IMG/VR virus record: IMGVR_UViG_3300025151_000337
Span: 1 to 22,309 of that record
DNA length: 22,309 bases
Reading direction: 5' to 3' (one strand)
Source: a virus
Within the stretch, counting starts at the first letter, position 1; each line of letters starts with the position of its first letter. A program made the translations under genes and the position numbers. Below, in pieces: positions 3,129-13,465 of the stretch. Below the pieces are notes generated by a model, which saw nothing but the letters and a program-made list of their open reading frames with translations, was not told the DNA's origin and did no database searches.

Positions 3129-3508
3129 TGGCTAAATCACCTGATGCGTTTGTTTATAACGCTACACTAGAACGTATTGTAGATGGGGACACCTTTGATT
3201 GTTGTCTTGATCTTGGTTTTGATGTGAAGTTACATAAACAGCGTGTCAGACTTGCAGGTATAGATACTCCAGAAAGCCGTACAAGAGATTTAGCAGAAAA
3301 AAAACTAGGTTTAGCAGCCAAATCGCGGTTACAAGAGCTATGTATCGGTAACTTTAAAGTAAAATCTTTGGGTAAAGGTAAGTATGGTCGTATATTAGGG
3401 ATACCTTACACAGAAGACGGTAGAGATATTTGCCAGGTTCTAATTAAAGAAGGTCATGCTGTGGAATATGACGGAGGCAAAAAGAAAAAAGTTTGGGGTG
3501 ATTACTAA
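3128..3508 (+). CDS. Staphylococcal-nuclease-like (SNase/TNase) endonuclease
   Basis: The 126-residue protein has the SNase fold signatures in order: VDGDTF (Asp19, Asp21), QRVRLAGIDTPES (Arg41, Asp46, Thr47, Glu49) and GKYGRILG (Arg88). These correspond to the Ca-binding Asp21/Asp40/Thr41 and the catalytic Arg35/Glu43/Arg87 of the Staphylococcus aureus enzyme, so it is predicted to be an active Ca-dependent DNA/RNA phosphodiesterase. It lacks a signal peptide and therefore acts in the cytoplasm or is packaged. It overlaps both neighbours by one base (TAATG). It may degrade host nucleic acid late in infection. The enzyme call is firm; the role is inferred. Confidence 0.9.
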   Translation: MAKSPDAFVYNATLERIVDGDTFDCCLDLGFDVKLHKQRVRLAGIDTPESRTRDLAEKKLGLAAKSRLQELCIGNFKVKSLGKGKYGRILGIPYTEDGRDICQVLIKEGHAVEYDGGKKKKVWGDY

Positions 3509-3858
3509 TGGAATCAGCCGTTATTTTAATTCAAGAAGTTGGATTCCCAATTGCAGCAGCATTAGGCCTTGGTTGGTTTATTTATAAGCTTATCATGCGT
3601 ATTGTTGATGGTATGGAAACCAAACTTGATACCGTAGATGAAAAAGTAGAAGCACAAATAGCCGCAATAGAAGAACGACTTGGCACAAAACTTGATTCAC
3701 AACACGGTATTTTGGTAGCATTAATAGATAGAGTGCGTAGTTTAGATAACGAAATAATACGTCAAGATACTTTGATAAAAACTATATTAGGAGTGCCTAA
3801 CTTAATTGATAGCGGAAAAATAGCCAAGGCAGGTAGAGATGATCAAAGAAAAGACTAA
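3508..3858 (+). CDS. Membrane-anchored coiled-coil protein, possibly holin-related
   Basis: This 116-residue product has one N-terminal hydrophobic segment (about residues 8-31, including GFPIAAALGLGWFIYKLIM). A long charged helix follows, with heptad-like spacing (METKLDTVDEKVEAQIAAIE and RVRSLDNEIIRQDTLIKTIL). The architecture, a short exposed N-terminus, one TM and a cytosolic coiled coil, resembles small holin or lysis-regulator proteins, but there is no diagnostic motif. The gene overlaps the SNase gene by one base and the csgF-like gene by 20 bases. It could belong to the lysis set or to the curli-like cassette. Confidence 0.7.
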   Translation: MESAVILIQEVGFPIAAALGLGWFIYKLIMRIVDGMETKLDTVDEKVEAQIAAIEERLGTKLDSQHGILVALIDRVRSLDNEIIRQDTLIKTILGVPNLIDSGKIAKAGRDDQRKD

Positions 3859-4351
3859 ACAAGAAAAAATGGAAGAAGAAATTGTAAAAACTAAAATAGC
3901 TATATGGGCATTTTTTATAGGTGCTATTATGTTTTCAGCAGTTCTAGGAATGAATTTAGCTGCTGATACCATAACTCATAAATTTAAGTCACCTAGTTTT
4001 AACGGCGTGGGAACGTCTAGTCATTACCTTACAATAGAAAATCAACAATATACTCGTAAACTAACAATCAAAGAAGAAATAAAAGCGTTACAAGATGAAA
4101 TCAAAAGAGAAAAAGAAAATTCTACTCTTGCAAGGTTTATGCGTAATCTTGAATCTAGGGTTTATGCAGAACTATCAAGACAGTTAGTAAATAACTTATT
4201 CGGAGAAACACCGCAAAGCGAAGGTGTCATCACTTTAGAGGGGAATACCATTGAGTACACAAGTGATGGTGTAACTTTAACCCTTAAAATAACCGAGGCG
4301 GATGGAACAGTTACCGAAATCGTCATACCTATTGGTACTTTTACTTTCTAG
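3839..4351 (+). CDS. csgF: CsgF-like curli assembly factor
   Basis: CsgF is the secreted partner that plugs into the CsgG channel and presents the curlin nucleator at the cell surface. This 170-residue protein has a hydrophobic export segment (residues about 20-42, ending LGMNLAAD). Residues 44-56, TITHKFKSPSFNG, match position by position the start of mature E. coli CsgF (TMTFQFRNPNFGG), the part known to insert in the CsgG pore. A helical region follows with LARFMRNLESRVYAELSRQL, then a beta-rich C-terminus (GVITLEGNTIEYTSDGVTLT...). The N-terminal extension before the hydrophobic segment is long and charged; Met11 (3869) is an alternative start, and neither start has a strong ribosome binding site. 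The 3' end overlaps csgG by 50 bases. Family assignment rests on remembered E. coli sequence. Confidence 0.85.
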   Translation: MIKEKTKQEKMEEEIVKTKIAIWAFFIGAIMFSAVLGMNLAADTITHKFKSPSFNGVGTSSHYLTIENQQYTRKLTIKEEIKALQDEIKREKENSTLARFMRNLESRVYAELSRQLVNNLFGETPQSEGVITLEGNTIEYTSDGVTLTLKITEADGTVTEIVIPIGTFTF

Positions 4352-5201
4352 TTGTTCTATATTTGATCAATTTGAAGATACTTACGAACAAAGGTTTTCT
4401 AAAGACGTAGCAACAATACAAGAACTGCAATCAGCAGAACTTAAAAATGTGCCTATACCAAAGGTAAGTCCTGTGGTTGCTGTGTATCCTACTTCATTTT
4501 CAGATCAAACAGGACAGCGTAAAAGCAATAGTGAGTTTGCTTTGTTTAGCACAGCTATAACTCAACAACCAAATGCGTTACTTATAAGAGCTTTAAAACA
4601 TGCAGGGGACGGTAAGTTTTTTAGGGTTGTAGAAAGGGTAGGCTTGGATAATCTTACCAAAGAAAGACAACTTATAAGATCAGCAAGAGAACAATCGACT
4701 GATGAAGAAGTAAAAAAACAAGCACTTAGACCTTTATTATTTGCAGGTATATTAATTGAAGGTGCTGTCATATCTTATGAAACAAATTTAGAAAGTGGTG
4801 GAGCAGGAGCCAGGTATTTGGGCATAGGCAAAAGCGTTATGTATAGAGAAGACAATATAACCATTAGTATGCGTATGGTATCAGTTGCAACAGGCGAGGT
4901 TTTGTTAGAAGTATTAAGTCAAAAAACAATATTTAGTTACGGTAAATCTGAAGATGTATTTAGATTTGTTGAAGCTGAAAGCGAGCTAGTAGAAATAGAA
5001 CTAGGCAACGCAAGAAATGAGTCATCAACCATAGCTTTGATGAAAGCTATAGAAGGAGGTGTGCTAGAAATCATTAACACTGGTTATGATCGTGGTTTCT
5101 GGGTTTTACAAAATGATAACCAAGGAGTAGAATTAAATGATGAAATTAAAATTGATAAGCCTGATTGTGATGATAACTGCGTTGACGACATACGCGGCTG
5201 A
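4302..5201 (+). CDS. csgG: CsgG-like outer-membrane curli secretion channel lipoprotein
   Basis: E. coli CsgG forms a nonameric outer-membrane channel that exports curlin subunits. This 299-residue homologue has a short signal with lipobox LLSSC (Cys18). It then shows the CsgG hallmarks in order: FSDQTGQRK (66-74), FSTAITQQPNALLIRAL, FFRVVERVGLDNLTKERQLI, ILIEGAVISYETNLESGG, GAGARYLGIGKSVMYRED, VATGEVLLEV, FRFVEAESELVEIELG and GYDRGFWVLQN. It is complete. The signal peptide is encoded inside the last 50 bases of csgF. In the constriction loop, Phe82 aligns with Phe56 of E. coli, but the Tyr51 and Asn55 positions differ. Next to CsgF and a curlin-like protein, it is expected to be the exporter of this cassette. 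No CsgE adaptor is seen. Confidence 0.93.
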   Translation: MEQLPKSSYLLVLLLSSCSIFDQFEDTYEQRFSKDVATIQELQSAELKNVPIPKVSPVVAVYPTSFSDQTGQRKSNSEFALFSTAITQQPNALLIRALKHAGDGKFFRVVERVGLDNLTKERQLIRSAREQSTDEEVKKQALRPLLFAGILIEGAVISYETNLESGGAGARYLGIGKSVMYREDNITISMRMVSVATGEVLLEVLSQKTIFSYGKSEDVFRFVEAESELVEIELGNARNESSTIALMKAIEGGVLEIINTGYDRGFWVLQNDNQGVELNDEIKIDKPDCDDNCVDDIRG

Positions 5202-5868
5202 CAACGAAATATATGTAGATCAATCTGGTACTGGAGCCAATATAGACCTAGAACAACTAGGTATTTCTAATATCATAGGCGGGTTAAATAGCTCTGCAGG
5301 TAATTTAACCCCCTTTGATTTAGATGGTAACAGTATGACACTTGACATAAATATGATAGGTGCAACCAACAAGTTTCTTGGTGATATATTTGCTGATAAC
5401 TTTACTGGTTTTTACGAGTTTGATGGTGGTACTAATTCATTTACTATTCAAGTTGACCCTACAGATACTTATAGTGCTGATGGATCTAATCAAAATGTAG
5501 ATGTAACAGGGAGCGGTAATACATTTACTTTGAACCAAGGCACCACAGCATTAGCAGCTTCTCTTGACTTAGACTGGATAATTAACGGTTCTAATAACAC
5601 AGTAACATCAAATATTAATATAGATGGTGCTACCAATTATATGGATATAGATGGTTCTGATAATACAGTCACTTATACAGGCACAGGAGTTACAGCGTCA
5701 GCAGGTGGATATTTCTATCTTGACCACACAGGAGGCTCAAGAACATTTAATATTCAACAACTAAGTACCCAAGACAATGACTGGCTTAAGATTATATCCG
5801 TTTCTGGCACTGCTGCTTCTACCGTTTGTGTTGTTCAAAACGACCAAGGTACAAGCACAAGCTGTTGA
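5137..5868 (+). CDS. Exported curlin-repeat-like protein, probable CsgG substrate
   Basis: The 243-residue product begins with a signal peptide (MMKLKLISLIVMITALTTYA, cleavage near residues 20-21). Directly after it, residues 23-45 read N-x5-Q-x-G-x3-N-x4-Q-x-G-x2-N, close to the curlin repeat. The rest is a diverged Gly/Asn/Thr/Asp-rich beta repeat with alternating residues (GSGNTFTLNQG, GSNNTVTSNINIDGATN, GSDNTVTYTG), suggesting a beta-solenoid or amyloid-like fold. Two cysteines near the end (TVCVVQNDQGTSTSC) could form a disulfide. A good ribosome binding site (aaggag, 5122-5127) supports this start, inside csgG. It overlaps csgG by 65 bases and the FecR gene by 92. Role as curlin-type substrate is inferred from the repeat and the neighbours; amyloid formation is untested. 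Confidence 0.8.
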   Translation: MMKLKLISLIVMITALTTYAADNEIYVDQSGTGANIDLEQLGISNIIGGLNSSAGNLTPFDLDGNSMTLDINMIGATNKFLGDIFADNFTGFYEFDGGTNSFTIQVDPTDTYSADGSNQNVDVTGSGNTFTLNQGTTALAASLDLDWIINGSNNTVTSNINIDGATNYMDIDGSDNTVTYTGTGVTASAGGYFYLDHTGGSRTFNIQQLSTQDNDWLKIISVSGTAASTVCVVQNDQGTSTSC

Positions 5869-6895
5869 TATTGGAGACATATCTGAATTAAACGGTACGG
5901 CTCAAATTGTCAGAGACAAACCTTATGATGCAGATTTAAAGTTTGCTATTCAAAGTAATGATGAGGCCATAACCAAAGATGGTCGTATGGCTATTACTTT
6001 TCTTGATGATTCTACTGTAAAACTTACAGAACATAGTCAGCTACTTATTGACGAGTACATATATGATCCAGACCCAAGCAAAGCAAAAATGGCTCTTACC
6101 TTTGGTCTTGGTACAGCTAGGTTTATTACAGGCAATTTAAACCGTATAGATAAACAGAATATAACTCTTAAAACACCAACAGCTAACATAGCAATACGTG
6201 GGACTGATTTTACGGCTACAGTTGATGAACTAGGGCGTAGCCTTATAATTTTGCTACCAGACGCTCTAGGGCTTTCTAGTGGCGAAATAGAGGTGGTTAC
6301 AGCTATGGGAACTGTTATACTAAACAAACCCTACGAAGCCACTACGGTGAACGTATTTGAGTCTGCTCCAACCAAACCTGTTATTTTAGATTTAACACTT
6401 GATGTTATAGATAACATGCTTATTGTTACGCCACCTAAAGAAGAGATGTTAGTAGAAGAAGAAACCACTACTACGCAAGCAGATAGTGTATTAGATTTTA
6501 ATGATCTTGATATAGATTATCTTGCAGAGGATTATTTAAAAGAAGATAGTCTTGAGTTTACAGAATTAGATATAAATTATCTTGATGTAAATTATCTTGA
6601 AGACTTGCTTAATGTATTAGATGCTTTAGCGATAGACGAAGATGAAGATGTGTTAGCACAAGCTACAAGCACACAGATAGCAGGCACTCTGTTAGGCAAA
6701 GATCCAGACACACAAATAACAGCTTTAATTACAGGAAATGTAGTAAGTTTGCGAAGAGAGGTAAATGAAAGTGTTAGAGTTGATCTAAATGGTAGTAATG
6801 CTTATACAGTTATTTTGATTCAAGATGGTGTATCTAATATAATAAAAATCAACGGAGGGAGCGACAGTGTTATTACTATCACTCAAAGTGATTAA
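5777..6895 (+). CDS. Exported FecR-domain protein with C-terminal curlin-like repeat
   Basis: The 372-residue protein starts with a signal peptide (MTGLRLYPFLALLLLPFVLF...VQAQA). Residues about 35-160 are a FecR domain: LNGTAQIVRD, DGRMAITFLDDSTVKLTEHS, then the hallmark KTPTANIAIRGTDF. A region rich in Glu, Asp and Thr (about 220-290) contains repeated D-(I/V)-(D/N)-Y-L units. The final 40 residues (333-372, for example NAYTVILIQDGVSN and SDSVITITQ) resemble a curlin repeat. The ATG at 5777 is the first possible start after an in-frame stop at 5762, and it alone gives the signal peptide, so the 92-base overlap with the curlin-like gene is probably real. FecR-domain proteins often neighbour CHASE2 cyclases, as here; the cyclase gene starts on the next base. 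Confidence 0.88.
   Translation: MTGLRLYPFLALLLLPFVLFKTTKVQAQAVDIGDISELNGTAQIVRDKPYDADLKFAIQSNDEAITKDGRMAITFLDDSTVKLTEHSQLLIDEYIYDPDPSKAKMALTFGLGTARFITGNLNRIDKQNITLKTPTANIAIRGTDFTATVDELGRSLIILLPDALGLSSGEIEVVTAMGTVILNKPYEATTVNVFESAPTKPVILDLTLDVIDNMLIVTPPKEEMLVEEETTTTQADSVLDFNDLDIDYLAEDYLKEDSLEFTELDINYLDVNYLEDLLNVLDALAIDEDEDVLAQATSTQIAGTLLGKDPDTQITALITGNVVSLRREVNESVRVDLNGSNAYTVILIQDGVSNIIKINGGSDSVITITQSD
6506..6603 (+). repeat. Short imperfect direct repeats encoding D-(I/V)-(D/N)-Y-L
   Basis: Three near-identical 19-base units lie at 6506-6524, 6566-6584 and 6581-6599, the last two abutting with a small overlap. They encode LDIDYL, LDINYL and LDVNYL within the acidic linker of the FecR-domain protein. 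The DNA similarity suggests recent local duplication and possible length variation between relatives. Confidence 0.6.
6773..6892 (+). other. Curlin-like repeat at the C-terminus of the FecR-domain protein
   Basis: The last 40 codons before the stop encode N-x6-I-Q-x-G-x2-N-x4-N-G-G-S-x-S-x5-Q, with alternating hydrophobic residues (YTVILIQ, SNIIKIN, SVITITQ). This follows the strand-turn-strand spacing of curlin repeats and resembles the start of the mature curlin-like protein encoded just upstream. The call is by eye. Confidence 0.55.
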
Positions 6896-8656
6896 ATGAG
6901 ACGACTATTATTACCAATACTTATAATACTAGCTTTGCCATTATTGTTTCAAAGCACTCCTACAGAAATATTAAAACTAAAAACTTTTGATAAATTTATA
7001 GAAACACCAGAGCCATCAGGTAACTTTGTCATACTTAACATAACCGAAGAAGATGTAGAGCGTGAGGGAGGTTGGCCCTTACCTAGACAAAGACTTGCAG
7101 AAATACAACTAGAAATGATAGGTAAAGGTGCCTTGGGTGTAGGATGGGTAATAAGTTTTCCACAAGCAGACAGAATGGGTGGTGATGAAGACTTTGCTAG
7201 ATCATTAGGATACGCTCCTTCTGTCATAGCTATGTTTGAAGATGGTAAAGGAAATTATCCTAAATCACCTGGAACTGTTGTGCTTGGTGATGATAATGGT
7301 GGTATACTCTCTACAGGAGTAAAGTCAAACCTACCTCTACTATCCAATCATGTTCTACAAGGTTTGGCTATTGCTCCTACTGATATAGATTTATTAGTCC
7401 GTAAAATACCTCTTTTAGTTAAAACACCAAATAATGAATGGATACCTAGTTTTGGCACACAAATATATAAATCTTTGTTTAATGTAAAAACTTATATTAT
7501 AAAAACTAATGATAATGGTATATCAGAAATATCAATCAGAGGAATACCACCGATTAAAACAGATAGTCTTGGTCGTAAGTGGGTTAGTTGGGTTAATACA
7601 CCACAAACAGACTTACAAGAAATGAATGTAAATGGTAAGTTTGTATTTGTAGGCGTTACTGCTAACGGTGTTATGCCACAAGTAGCCACGCCTGTTGGAC
7701 TTTTAGAGCCACATAAAATACAAACTGCACTTGCTGAGTCTATACTAATAGAGGATTCACCATACATACCTGACTGGTCATTAGCAGCAGAACTTTTAAT
7801 TTTAATAATATTTGTTAGTTTAGTTTGGTTTGCATTACATTACTTTGGCATTACATGGGGAGTATCTATTGCTACTGTATTAATGTTAATTACAGGAACG
7901 TTTGGTATCTATATGATTAAACAAGGTTTATTGGTAGATGTATCTTGGACTTTAGTATCTGAATTTATAACAGGATCAATAGCTTTTTACTTAAGATTTA
8001 GACAACAATACAAACTAAGACAGCAGATTAAGAAACAGTTTGAACATTACCTTGATCCACGCCAAGTAAAAAAACTACAAGACGATCCTAGTTCTTTAGT
8101 GTTAGGTGGTGAAAAAAGATATTGCACTTTTTTATTTACAGATGTTAGAGGTTTTACTGCTATGTCAGAAAAACTAGAACCAGAAGAAGTAACTAAAATT
8201 ATGAATAAAGCTTTAACTATACAAGCTGATGCAGTTAAAAAGTATGGTGGTATGGTAGATAAGTACATTGGAGATGCCATGATGGCAATATTTAATGCAC
8301 CGATAGATTTACCAAATCACGAAACTGTAGCAGTTTTATGTGCTGAAGAGATACAAGACAATGTTAAAAAAGCTGATCTTGGTATTGAAATAGGACTTGG
8401 TGTTAATACTGGATATGCTGTTGTGGGTAACATGGGTAGCGATACTAGGTTTGATTACTCAGCGATTGGTGATGCTGTTAATCTTGCAGCAAGGCTTGAA
8501 AGCTCAACTAAGGATGTTGGAGAAGATATTGTTATAGGTTATGATACTATCAGTGCAAGTAGCTTTAGCGATCAAATTATGTTAAAGGAGCTTGATAGTA
8601 TTTTTGTAAAAGGCAAAGAAAAGCCAATTAAAATATATACATTACAAAATGGTTAA
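6896..8656 (+). CDS. CHASE2-domain membrane-bound class III adenylate/guanylate cyclase
   Basis: This 586-residue receptor cyclase makes a cyclic nucleotide in the cytoplasm in response to a periplasmic cue. It has an N-terminal TM (residues 3-19) and a periplasmic CHASE2 domain (about 20-290, with ILNITEEDVEREGGWPLPRQ, GKFVFVGVTANG and TPVGLLEPHKIQTALAES). Three TMs follow at about 297-366, then a short linker and the class III cyclase domain (about 408-585). Catalytic positions are intact: metal-binding Asp416 (FTDVRGF) and Asp460 (KYIGDAMMAIF), purine-contacting Lys456, and transition-state Asn529 and Arg533 (VNLAARLE). Ser522 occupies the site that is Asp in mammalian and Thr in many bacterial adenylate cyclases. 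cAMP is likelier than cGMP because Lys456 is kept. It follows the FecR gene without a gap. Confidence 0.95.
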   Translation: MRRLLLPILIILALPLLFQSTPTEILKLKTFDKFIETPEPSGNFVILNITEEDVEREGGWPLPRQRLAEIQLEMIGKGALGVGWVISFPQADRMGGDEDFARSLGYAPSVIAMFEDGKGNYPKSPGTVVLGDDNGGILSTGVKSNLPLLSNHVLQGLAIAPTDIDLLVRKIPLLVKTPNNEWIPSFGTQIYKSLFNVKTYIIKTNDNGISEISIRGIPPIKTDSLGRKWVSWVNTPQTDLQEMNVNGKFVFVGVTANGVMPQVATPVGLLEPHKIQTALAESILIEDSPYIPDWSLAAELLILIIFVSLVWFALHYFGITWGVSIATVLMLITGTFGIYMIKQGLLVDVSWTLVSEFITGSIAFYLRFRQQYKLRQQIKKQFEHYLDPRQVKKLQDDPSSLVLGGEKRYCTFLFTDVRGFTAMSEKLEPEEVTKIMNKALTIQADAVKKYGGMVDKYIGDAMMAIFNAPIDLPNHETVAVLCAEEIQDNVKKADLGIEIGLGVNTGYAVVGNMGSDTRFDYSAIGDAVNLAARLESSTKDVGEDIVIGYDTISASSFSDQIMLKELDSIFVKGKEKPIKIYTLQNG

Positions 8657-8864
8657 TAAAAAAATGACAGTAAACGATGTAGCAGAGAGACTAACAAAGT
8701 TAGAAACTATATCACATGAGCGTTGGAAAACTGCTTTTAACGAGTTTTCCGATATAAAACAAGAAATTACCTATATTAATTCAACCATAAAGGCCACTAC
8801 CTTTGGAGTGTTTGGCTTTCTTGGTGCGATTGGTATAGCTGTATTAACGAGTATATTAATATGA
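8649..8864 (+). CDS. 71-residue tail-anchored membrane protein (XhlA/holin-accessory-like)
   Basis: The product has a helical charged N-terminus (MTVNDVAERLTKLETISHER) and one C-terminal hydrophobic segment (about residues 49-71, TTFGVFGFLGAIGIAVLTSI). This layout is like XhlA-type lysis accessory proteins, though similarity is by architecture only. The start overlaps the cyclase by eight bases; Met6 at 8664, just after the cyclase stop, is an equally plausible start, and neither has a clear ribosome binding site. The stop overlaps the holin start (ATGA), so it is probably part of the lysis operon. Confidence 0.7.
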   Translation: MVNKKMTVNDVAERLTKLETISHERWKTAFNEFSDIKQEITYINSTIKATTFGVFGFLGAIGIAVLTSILI

Positions 8865-9340
8865 AAGGATTGTTAAAAAATATAGTTGGAGCTGTAGCAC
8901 CAACACTAGGAACAGCAATTGCAGGGCCTATGGGTAACATGGCTTTAGGTAAAATAGCAGAAGTTTTAGGATGTCCAGCAGATCAAAAGTCTGTTCAAAA
9001 AGCAGTGCAAAATGCAACACCAGAACAAATGATTGAACTTAAAAAAGCTGAACAAGAGTTTGAAGTACAAATGAAAGAATTAGATGTGGATGTTTTTAAA
9101 CTTGAAGCACAAGAAAAACAACATGCTAGAGGTATGTTCAGCAAAGATTGGACTGCTAGGATTATAGGTTTATTTACCATAGGTGGTTTTCTTGGTTATA
9201 TTTTTTTAGTAACACTACAACCACCTGAACAAAATTCTGAAGCATTAATAAATTTAGTGCTTGGTTATCTTGGAGGATTAGCAAGTGCTATTATTTCGTT
9301 TTATTTCGGAGCATCTCACACCAACGATAAAGGAGAGTAA
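8861..9340 (+). CDS. Holin, 3-TM type of gene-transfer-agent/phage lysis
   Basis: Holins permeabilise the inner membrane to release or activate endolysin. The 159-residue protein has a hydrophobic/amphipathic N-terminus (LKNIVGAVAPTLGTAIAGPM), a charged coiled-coil middle (about residues 50-90, rich in Glu, Lys and Gln), then KDWTARIIGLFTIGGFLGYI and LINLVLGYLGGLASAIISFY as two strong TMs. This layout matches the family named 'holin of 3TMs, for gene-transfer release' (GTA_holin_3TM). It sits directly before the lysozyme gene, as holins usually do. Confidence 0.82.
   Translation: MKGLLKNIVGAVAPTLGTAIAGPMGNMALGKIAEVLGCPADQKSVQKAVQNATPEQMIELKKAEQEFEVQMKELDVDVFKLEAQEKQHARGMFSKDWTARIIGLFTIGGFLGYIFLVTLQPPEQNSEALINLVLGYLGGLASAIISFYFGASHTNDKGE
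9331..9337 (+). promoter_or_regulatory. Ribosome binding site that fixes the lysozyme start
   Basis: The sequence aggagag lies about five bases before the ATG at 9342. It favours this start over an in-frame upstream ATG at 9285, which would overlap the holin gene by 56 bases and add a non-family N-terminus. Confidence 0.75.
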
Positions 9341-12008: not shown

Positions 12009-12995
12009 ATGAAAAAATTATCTGAAGGAAACAAAGGGATACAGGCACTAGCAAAAGAAAACCCTGCCTTAGTAGAAGACAAGTTCGGTTATGATGTGCC
12101 AGGCTACTTTATGGGTGGAATGCCTGGTTATGATGAAGCTCAAGACGAAGCACTAAAAGACTTAAAAGATTTTCAAAATAGAATTGCAGGCTTAGATCCT
12201 GACGAAGACAAAGCTACAATAATAGGAGAAATGCTTTCAATGATAGGAGATTCAGCAGACTTTGCTCCTTTAGTAAGACCAGGTAAGGTTGCAGGAATTG
12301 AAGCAATTATACCTAAGATAAGAAGACCAGATCCTGAAACACTAATGCCACAAGGTTTTAGAAGAGGTGGTATGCCAGGTGGTTTGGGTAGTTTATACGA
12401 AAGAGATTTTATAGCTGATGATTTTAATATAAAAGATTATATTAATAACGTTTTAGGTGCTGGAACAACAACACCATTAACAGAAGAAGAACAAGAGGCT
12501 ATGAGATTAGCAAGAGGTTACGGTGCCTCTGGTGCTATGGGTGGTAATCGTTATAGAGGCACAACTCCAGGTGCAGATATAACCATAGATGCACGATCAG
12601 AAAACCCTGCTGTTTACAAATTTTATCCTAGTGAGGTCTCAAAACTTTACTCTCAAATGAAAGGCGTGCCATTTTCCCCCTTGGTGGCACCGCCTAAAGA
12701 AGCAACTTTTGTTGATGATTTACAGCCAAAAAGAATTACAAGTCAACTATATGCTAAAGACGGTAAGTTTGTAGATAGAAGTGAATTAGTTACAGGTCCA
12801 GGCGGAGAGCGAGGCGACAAGATACCAGCCATGTTAAGTGATGGCGAGTTTGTTGTAAACGCTGCTGCCGTAAGAGGTATAGGTTTACAAGCTGGTGCAG
12901 ATCCAGATGATGAATACGAACAAAGATTACTCGGAGCTCGTAAAATGTACGAAATGCAAAAAATTGGAGAAGATTTTGCTAAGAAGTTGACATGA
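12009..12995 (+). CDS. Virion-region protein with 'IPAMLSDGEFVV' motif
   Basis: This 328-residue protein ends with the motif ERGDKIPAMLSDGEFVV (268-284) followed by NAAAVRGIGLQAGA. From memory, this motif recurs in large virion or tape-measure-type proteins of marine phages. It also contains two Gly-Gly-Met elements (YFMGGMPGY, 33-41, and FRRGGMPGG, 117-125) and a proline-rich middle. No enzymatic motif or TM is visible. It overlaps the acetyltransferase gene by four bases (ATGA). It is probably an internal or tail-associated virion protein by position; its biochemical role is unknown. Confidence 0.7.
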   Translation: MKKLSEGNKGIQALAKENPALVEDKFGYDVPGYFMGGMPGYDEAQDEALKDLKDFQNRIAGLDPDEDKATIIGEMLSMIGDSADFAPLVRPGKVAGIEAIIPKIRRPDPETLMPQGFRRGGMPGGLGSLYERDFIADDFNIKDYINNVLGAGTTTPLTEEEQEAMRLARGYGASGAMGGNRYRGTTPGADITIDARSENPAVYKFYPSEVSKLYSQMKGVPFSPLVAPPKEATFVDDLQPKRITSQLYAKDGKFVDRSELVTGPGGERGDKIPAMLSDGEFVVNAAAVRGIGLQAGADPDDEYEQRLLGARKMYEMQKIGEDFAKKLT

Positions 12996-13465
12996 ATTTA
13001 GTATTAGAAACTGTAGTTCCTAGTGCTGAAAATGGTCAAGAGATTGCAAAATTTTTATCTGAAAATTTTTGGACAGAGCATTCTTTATCAGGAGAGCAGT
13101 CTCCTGAAATAGATTGGTCAAGAGCTTCTGCTCACATAAATCATTTTATGTTTGAAGGTATTGTGTATAATGTGAGTGATGGCGATAAAATCGTAGGTAG
13201 TATAGCTGTCGCACCTGATAAACATTGGTGGTCAGCAGAAGAATATGTAGGAGATGGATGGTTTTTTGTTTTACCTGAATACAGAAACCTAAAAGATCAA
13301 ACATCGCCTTCACATCTTTTAATAGATGCAGTTATAGATTATGCTAATAAACTAGAAAAGCCTTTAATAATGGGCGTGTTTAACTTACAAGGAGTTGAAC
13401 GAGCTAAAAAATTATTTGATAAAAAAGGCTTTCACCAAATAGGTGGTATGTATTATAGGAATTAA
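12992..13465 (+). CDS. GNAT-family N-acetyltransferase-like protein
   Basis: The 157-residue product has the GNAT order of elements: an N-terminal helix pair, a beta hairpin (YNVSDGDKIVGSIAVAPD), strand 4 and motif A (DGWFFVLPEYRNLK, then a helix LLIDAVIDYANKL), a strand (PLIMGVFNLQG) and a final KKLFDKKGFHQIGG. The acetyl-CoA pyrophosphate loop, usually (Q/R)xxGx(G/A), is degenerate (NLKDQTSPS), so either binding is altered or the alignment is imperfect. Similar small GNAT proteins lie among structural genes of other marine podoviruses. The substrate is unknown; acetylation of a virion or host protein is a guess. Confidence 0.8.
   Translation: MNLVLETVVPSAENGQEIAKFLSENFWTEHSLSGEQSPEIDWSRASAHINHFMFEGIVYNVSDGDKIVGSIAVAPDKHWWSAEEYVGDGWFFVLPEYRNLKDQTSPSHLLIDAVIDYANKLEKPLIMGVFNLQGVERAKKLFDKKGFHQIGGMYYRN

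Follow-up and report, generated by a model that had tools for sequence, protein, structure and literature searches.

The window analysed here, the whole 22,309-base IMG/VR virus record IMGVR_UViG_3300025151_000337, carries five adjacent genes that appear to join a phage-borne curli (type VIII) module to a bacterial-type FecR-CHASE2 pair. The exported FecR-domain protein of this set ends in the same short motif as the curlin-like protein encoded just before it, and we propose, at a probability of about 0.5, that FecR senses the state of the curlin and sets cAMP. The module is real and conserved and belongs to an already published pelagiphage kind; the curlin-type tail of FecR is the part worth following.

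The original prediction placed five consecutive plus strand genes at 3839–8656, and this arrangement was borne out, with ORF ends that overlap. It also held that the full set had not been described as a phage operon, which is wrong: PMC9599517 (2022) reports pelagiphage podoviruses and myoviruses with CsgF, CsgG, CsgA/B, FecR, often a second CsgA/B, and adenylate cyclase, names the set a type VIII secretion (T8SS) module, and proposes superinfection defence, aggregation, sibling capture, and uptake as its possible roles. The first part of the module, CsgF and CsgG with their neighbours, had been reported in pelagimyophages (PMC7029224, 2020), and the pore is described in phage Melnitz, where a role in lysis was proposed (PMC9004378, 2022). 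A literature search combining curli, FecR, adenylate cyclase, and phage returned PMC9599517 only. The order csgF-csgG-curlin-FecR-(curlin)-cyclase of the published module is found in the window, and HTVC008M and Melnitz keep it too, with a second curlin-type gene inserted between FecR and cyclase in both phages.

Relatives were collected by one IMG/VR scan with CsgG (best 80 of 343 taken) and two with FecR (best 80 of 578 from each). Counting distinct FecRs with at least 4.5 kb of downstream sequence, and among the matches listed, a cyclase follows FecR on the same strand within 3 kb in all 36 podophage-type loci from the CsgG scan and in 40 of the 42 remaining distinct loci from IMG/VR or phages; of the two that differ, L176 has a cyclase-type ORF on the other strand, and the second is L221. 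Again among the matches listed, a second curlin gene is found in none of the 36 podophage-type loci, window included, and in 34 of the 42 others. The module order is kept in IMG/VR contigs, HTVC008M, and Melnitz, and because it recurs across many separate contigs wherever the locus is uncut, misassembly or an order unique to this contig, which had been named in advance as grounds for abandoning the prediction, is rejected. At the nucleotide level, a blastn search of the cassette against phages matched HTVC008M alone, with 2% covered. Four contigs assigned to MAGs of Flavobacteriaceae, Pirellulales, and Pelagibacter (L084, L085, L086, and L154) carry a phage-type module and probably come from phages whose sequences were binned with bacteria; a csgG match in the 1,499-base record OR851715.1 (Salmonella phage S.Kent 1-2-1) may be bacterial DNA filed as phage.

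The export genes were correctly named. The CsgF homologue (3839–4351, plus strand) scores above the Pfam curated cut-off (PF10614, E = 1.5e-14) and has an N-terminal hydrophobic segment and the segment F-K-S-P-S-F-N-G, whose pattern, F-x-[NSTDG]-P-x-[FL]-x-G, occurs in 113 of 122 distinct phage copies. The matching segment of E. coli CsgF presumably binds inside CsgG, and the phage CsgF, as judged from its sequence, retains the segment expected to sit there. CsgG (4302–5201, plus strand) is likewise above its curated cut-off (PF03783, 5e-45), is matched by solved E. coli CsgG structures at about 3e-49, and has a lipobox-like LSSC recognized by eye; with the lipobox pattern present in 132 of 136 distinct phage copies, it is predicted to be a lipoprotein-type channel relative. 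One loop is unlike that of E. coli in the alignment (KSNSEFALF versus KPYP-ASNF), and we take this loop to be the pore constriction of E. coli CsgG. A search of 15 phage records that carry the module, several of which are fragments, found the CsgE gate (PF10627) in 0 of 15; CsgE is missing from alphaproteobacterial modules too (PMC9599517).

The curlin-like gene (5137–5868, plus strand) is less plain. The window ORF alone falls below the cut-off (Curlin_rpt, PF07012, E = 0.17), and its curlin-like identity stands at the level of the family, in which 20 of 27 aligned members match PF07012 at E<=0.1 (best 9.5e-6). The family has a common curlin-like N-terminus and an invariant Q-x-D near its end, and the fibre gene product is best described as a weak curlin relative that is predicted to be exported. 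Its AlphaFold model is beta-rich (mean pLDDT 79.6); a Foldseek check of the model, as the prediction had suggested, was run and gave 77 matches, and since the best PDB match had an E value of 0.41 the curlin fold is left unconfirmed by structure search. The podophage-type curlins extend shortly beyond the end motif described below (QGTSTSC in the window), and the curlin gene and the start of FecR overlap by 92 bases (5777–5868).

The FecR-domain protein (5777–6895, plus strand) was also correctly identified (PF04773, 2.7e-9, above the Pfam curated cut-off). It begins with a hydrophobic signal-like segment and its last residues are SVITITQSD; it is predicted to be exported, and its end matches the curlin end. 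Among the matches listed, the motif [VIL]x[VIL]xQ, lying no more than three residues from the stop, is present in 130 of 130 distinct complete phage FecRs, which are homologous and therefore not independent cases. The same end is found in 107 of 163 phage curlins and 6 of 11 alphaproteobacterial curlin-repeat ORFs. It is absent from all 1112 other ORFs of at least 150 aa from the same loci, and by family it occurs in 0/130 CsgG, 0/97 CsgF, 1/89 cyclases, and 0/142 small upstream proteins. Bacterial FecRs have it in 3 of 84 cases (6 of 84 with a looser motif), and the idea that the tail is a general FecR trait is rejected on the strict count. These FecR counts omit ORFs that contain X, have fewer than 300 residues, or are cut at the locus end; 177 complete phage FecRs came down to 130 once copies sharing the same last 250 residues were collapsed, and the bacterial set came from the best 80 of 281 relatives (79 loci), excluding the four contigs binned with bacteria.

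An alignment of 34 FecRs, the window protein plus 33 of 36 picked (L002, L003, and L215 were left out), has PF04773 in every member, and its 47 invariant columns include the terminal Q370 even though all but one of the sequences are only 33–37% identical to that of the window. Scored with a position matrix derived from internal segments of curlin, the FecR end averages 9.1 bits and is the top site of the protein in 108 of 130 cases; this test is soft, since 2.4% of shuffled tails score as high as the observed mean, and the motif count carries more weight. In myophage FecRs, the tail beyond its last strand does not clearly resemble curlin repeats. Structure prediction gave a weak FecR model (mean pLDDT 57.5, falling below 50 at the last residues), with residues 299–370 modelled at low confidence as short strands. 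Structure matches to the FecR domain of this model include 4m0h (8.7e-5) and the PupR signalling domain 6ovk (8.5e-4), whereas a PDB sequence search with the FecR profile gave 0 matches. No cytoplasmic N-terminal anti-sigma domain of the FecR/PupR type, and no other Pfam domain, was found in the 34 members at E<=0.1. We saw no mention of the FecR tail in PMC9599517, in whose main text “c-terminal” occurs 0 times, and a literature search joining FecR with “curlin” found no title about phages, a search that texts writing only “curli” escape.

The cyclase (6896–8656, plus strand) has the predicted layout of a CHASE2 sensor (PF05226, 9.3e-24), transmembrane segments, and a class III adenylate cyclase domain (Guanylate_cyc, PF00211, 1.2e-18), both domains being above curated cut-offs. 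The metal Asp pair and the Lys/Asp and Asn/Arg catalytic residues are all present in the window protein. Across 96 distinct phage copies the catalytic D, K, D, and R are invariant, while the adenine-type Asp and Asn are each kept in 82, so some copies may be inactive; in 14 of the 96 the Asn is replaced by Ser. The Melnitz cyclase (L003:12541-14589) has Ser in place of the conserved active-site Asn of the window.

FecR-CHASE2 neighbours are also found outside phages. Bacterial FecR loci have a CHASE2/cyclase-type ORF in 24 of 75 cases, directly adjacent and on the same strand in 5 of 75. Seven such partners were scanned, of which four are CHASE2 with cyclase and three, all from SAR11, CHASE2 with SpoIIE, which indicates that FecR stays paired with CHASE2 as the output domain varies. 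In PMC5192318, FecR and a CHASE2 kinase belong to a biofilm operon with a biofilm phenotype; in S. meliloti, which has a CHASE2 cyclase, the cAMP regulator Clr counts a FecR-domain protein among its targets (PMC5498481). We searched 16 SAR11 genomes, chosen for their FecR loci and consisting of incomplete single-cell or similar assemblies of 0.9–1.3 Mb; CHASE2 was found in 15 and a cNMP-binding domain in 3, and class III cyclase and CsgG in 0. The 15 phage records with the module, of which several are fragments, gave a cNMP-binding domain in 0 cases, and with only 3 of the 16 SAR11 genomes having one, no cAMP reader is evident. The SAR11 FecR-domain proteins near CHASE2-SpoIIE genes are at L115:5629-10890, L124:5416-9411, and L105:5425-9375; by eye, neighbouring ORFs resemble a prepilin peptidase and, in L105, type IV pilins.

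The gene immediately before csgF (3508–3858, plus strand) encodes, from its translation and family alignments, a small membrane protein of 116 aa in which one TM segment at the N-terminus is combined with a coiled coil. From its position we infer that it corresponds to the published “histidine kinase” (“HK”). Members of its family are about 91–116 aa long with one N-terminal TM and a coiled coil, and 157 of 196 viral loci contain one or two copies; many of the other loci are cut. Eight members of the family matched no kinase family at E<=1, the weak matches being to unrelated small or coiled-coil families, and HATPase_c was found in 0 of the 15 module-bearing phage records, several of which are fragments; a HATPase-type histidine kinase upstream of csgF is rejected on these grounds. 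In some myophage-type loci both small proteins lie after the cyclase on the other strand; L174, L199, L214, L224, L235, and L243 have the one-TM pair in this position and not before csgF, so that it is still with the module. Downstream, a 71-aa protein with a coiled coil and a C-terminal TM (8649–8864, plus strand) adjoins the cyclase, and a gene of this kind follows the module in many podophage-type loci.

The surroundings are those of a phage, as predicted: S74 tail fibre, SNase, Phage_lysozyme, and a virion structural family are all recognizable. A holin-like gene and the lysozyme gene directly follow the module; the identity of the claimed holin (8861–9340) is weakly supported (GTA_holin_3TM, E = 0.087, below cut-off). 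Among the virion genes is a weak GNAT acetyltransferase-like ORF (12992–13465; E = 0.0028, below cut-off), and the virion block of Roseobacter phage CRP-902 likewise has an annotated GNAT gene. A 56.6 kb contig (the source of L019) whose csgG is 92% identical to that of the window has 129 six-frame ORFs of at least 80 aa, many of which are not genes; 25 match phage 023Pt_psg01 (whole record), 23 match Pelagibacter phage HTVC023P, 25 CRP-902, and 21 phage DSL-LC04, the last three compared over their first 50,000 bases. Several of these ORFs are 59–72% identical to HTVC023P, and at 47–52 kb those with any match are to CRP-902 only. We take the window phage to be a marine podophage related to the HTVC023P type. 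Promoter and terminator scans gave 17 promoter-like sites (28.3 in shuffles) and 4 terminator-like sites (3.3 in shuffles).

The reading we favor runs as follows. During infection CsgG-CsgF would export the curlin protein, which would build fibres on a host that has none; FecR would dock, through its curlin-like last strand, on curlin that is ready for export or already assembled, and the FecR domain would relay the state of export or of the fibre across the periplasm to CHASE2 and so set the cAMP output. The likely benefit would be that infected cells change their surface, or cluster, during phage maturation. In favor of this reading are the profile matches of the export and signalling genes, the conserved CsgF segment and CsgG lipobox, the curlin family, the regular succession of FecR and cyclase, the end motif common to FecR and curlin, the bacterial FecR-CHASE2 neighbours found without curli, and the likeness of the FecR domain model to 6ovk. 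At the level of genes, the idea that surface remodelling is tied to cyclic-nucleotide signalling, as the original prediction proposed, is plausible. The specific role of fibre-state sensor, in which a protein combining a curlin-type strand with a periplasmic signalling domain docks nascent curlin and gates the CHASE2 cyclase, is more tentative than the scheme as a whole.

The identical end motif on FecR and curlin might instead mean that FecR is itself a fibre component or nucleator, like CsgB, whose tail is an export or assembly signal and which anchors or starts fibres, with the cyclase as a separate output. The podophage-type loci, none of which (0/36) has a second curlin, do leave room for another partner of this kind. 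We consider such a role rather unlikely, since the loci with a second curlin (34/42) retain the FecR tail, and bacterial FecR-CHASE2 neighbours have no curli genes called beside them, which points to signalling.

Two other proposals concern the pore. The one made for Melnitz (PMC9004378) is that CsgG-CsgF opens late, depolarises or opens the envelope, and so aids the lysin. It suits the window, where the module directly precedes the holin-like gene and lysozyme, and the small one-TM proteins that travel with the module; but the lysozyme neighbourhood is not kept in HTVC008M and Melnitz, where tail genes follow the module, and the curlin, FecR, and cyclase are kept alongside the pore, so that we rate it slightly below a structural role for FecR. 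Least probable of the three, in our view, is that the pore serves the uptake of nutrients or cofactors in infected cells (PMC7029224, PMC9599517). With no CsgE gate found in any of the 15 records that carry the module, the pore might stay open. In other systems, FecR domains sense uptake. Against import, CsgF and curlin are conserved with CsgG, and uptake leaves the common end of FecR and curlin unexplained. Returning to a FecR that reads the curlin and sets cAMP, clustering is one of its suggested benefits, and OM43 cells infected by Melnitz are reported without clumping (PMC9004378), which counts against it. Also against it are the lack of an evident cAMP reader, the missing CsgE, the loss of the active-site Asn in 14 of 96 cyclases, the weak FecR model, the soft matrix test, and the unclear curlin likeness of the myophage FecR tails beyond their last strand.

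If FecR does act as a sensor, these phages would have a checkpoint linking the assembly of fibres to a second messenger, in hosts where neither curli nor class III cyclases are seen. Very abundant marine bacteria have phages that keep a fibre-export kit, and the C-terminal strand common to FecR and curlin offers a concrete, testable link between its fibre half and its signalling half. The options for the signalling half are altered by the non-kinase upstream gene and by the finding that none of the phages and few of the SAR11 genomes searched offer a candidate cAMP reader. To the module as published in PMC9599517 we would add the curlin-type end of FecR, the non-kinase upstream gene, and the SAR11 FecR/CHASE2-SpoIIE loci in genomes where class III cyclase was not found.

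Compared with known systems, the window shares with the pelagiphage T8SS module the order CsgF, CsgG, curlin, FecR, cyclase on one strand, with small upstream gene(s); it differs from HTVC008M and Melnitz in having no second curlin gene, and its upstream gene is a non-kinase by profile, in contrast to the “histidine kinase” of PMC9599517. Bacterial csg operons and the phage module both have CsgG, CsgF, and a curlin subunit, and alphaproteobacterial curlins often share the end motif of phage curlin and FecR. Among 385 genomes, CsgF exceeded its cut-off in 5 (one more scored below it and was left out of the locus count), and none of these five alphaproteobacterial loci has FecR or a CHASE2 cyclase within about 10 kb, whereas the phage module has both; in this small sample, bacterial curli operons are not supported as a ready source of the FecR-cyclase pair. 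FecR/PupR anti-sigma regulators have the FecR domain in common with the phage protein, and only the former have the anti-sigma N-terminus. The bacterial FecR-CHASE2 pairs are closer, with an exported FecR-domain protein beside a CHASE2 membrane sensor in both settings and an output that is a histidine kinase in the BiofilmReg operon of PMC5192318, SpoIIE in SAR11, and a cyclase in the phage. What sets the phage pair apart is the curlin-type end, rare on bacterial FecRs (3/84) and universal on the phage set (130/130).
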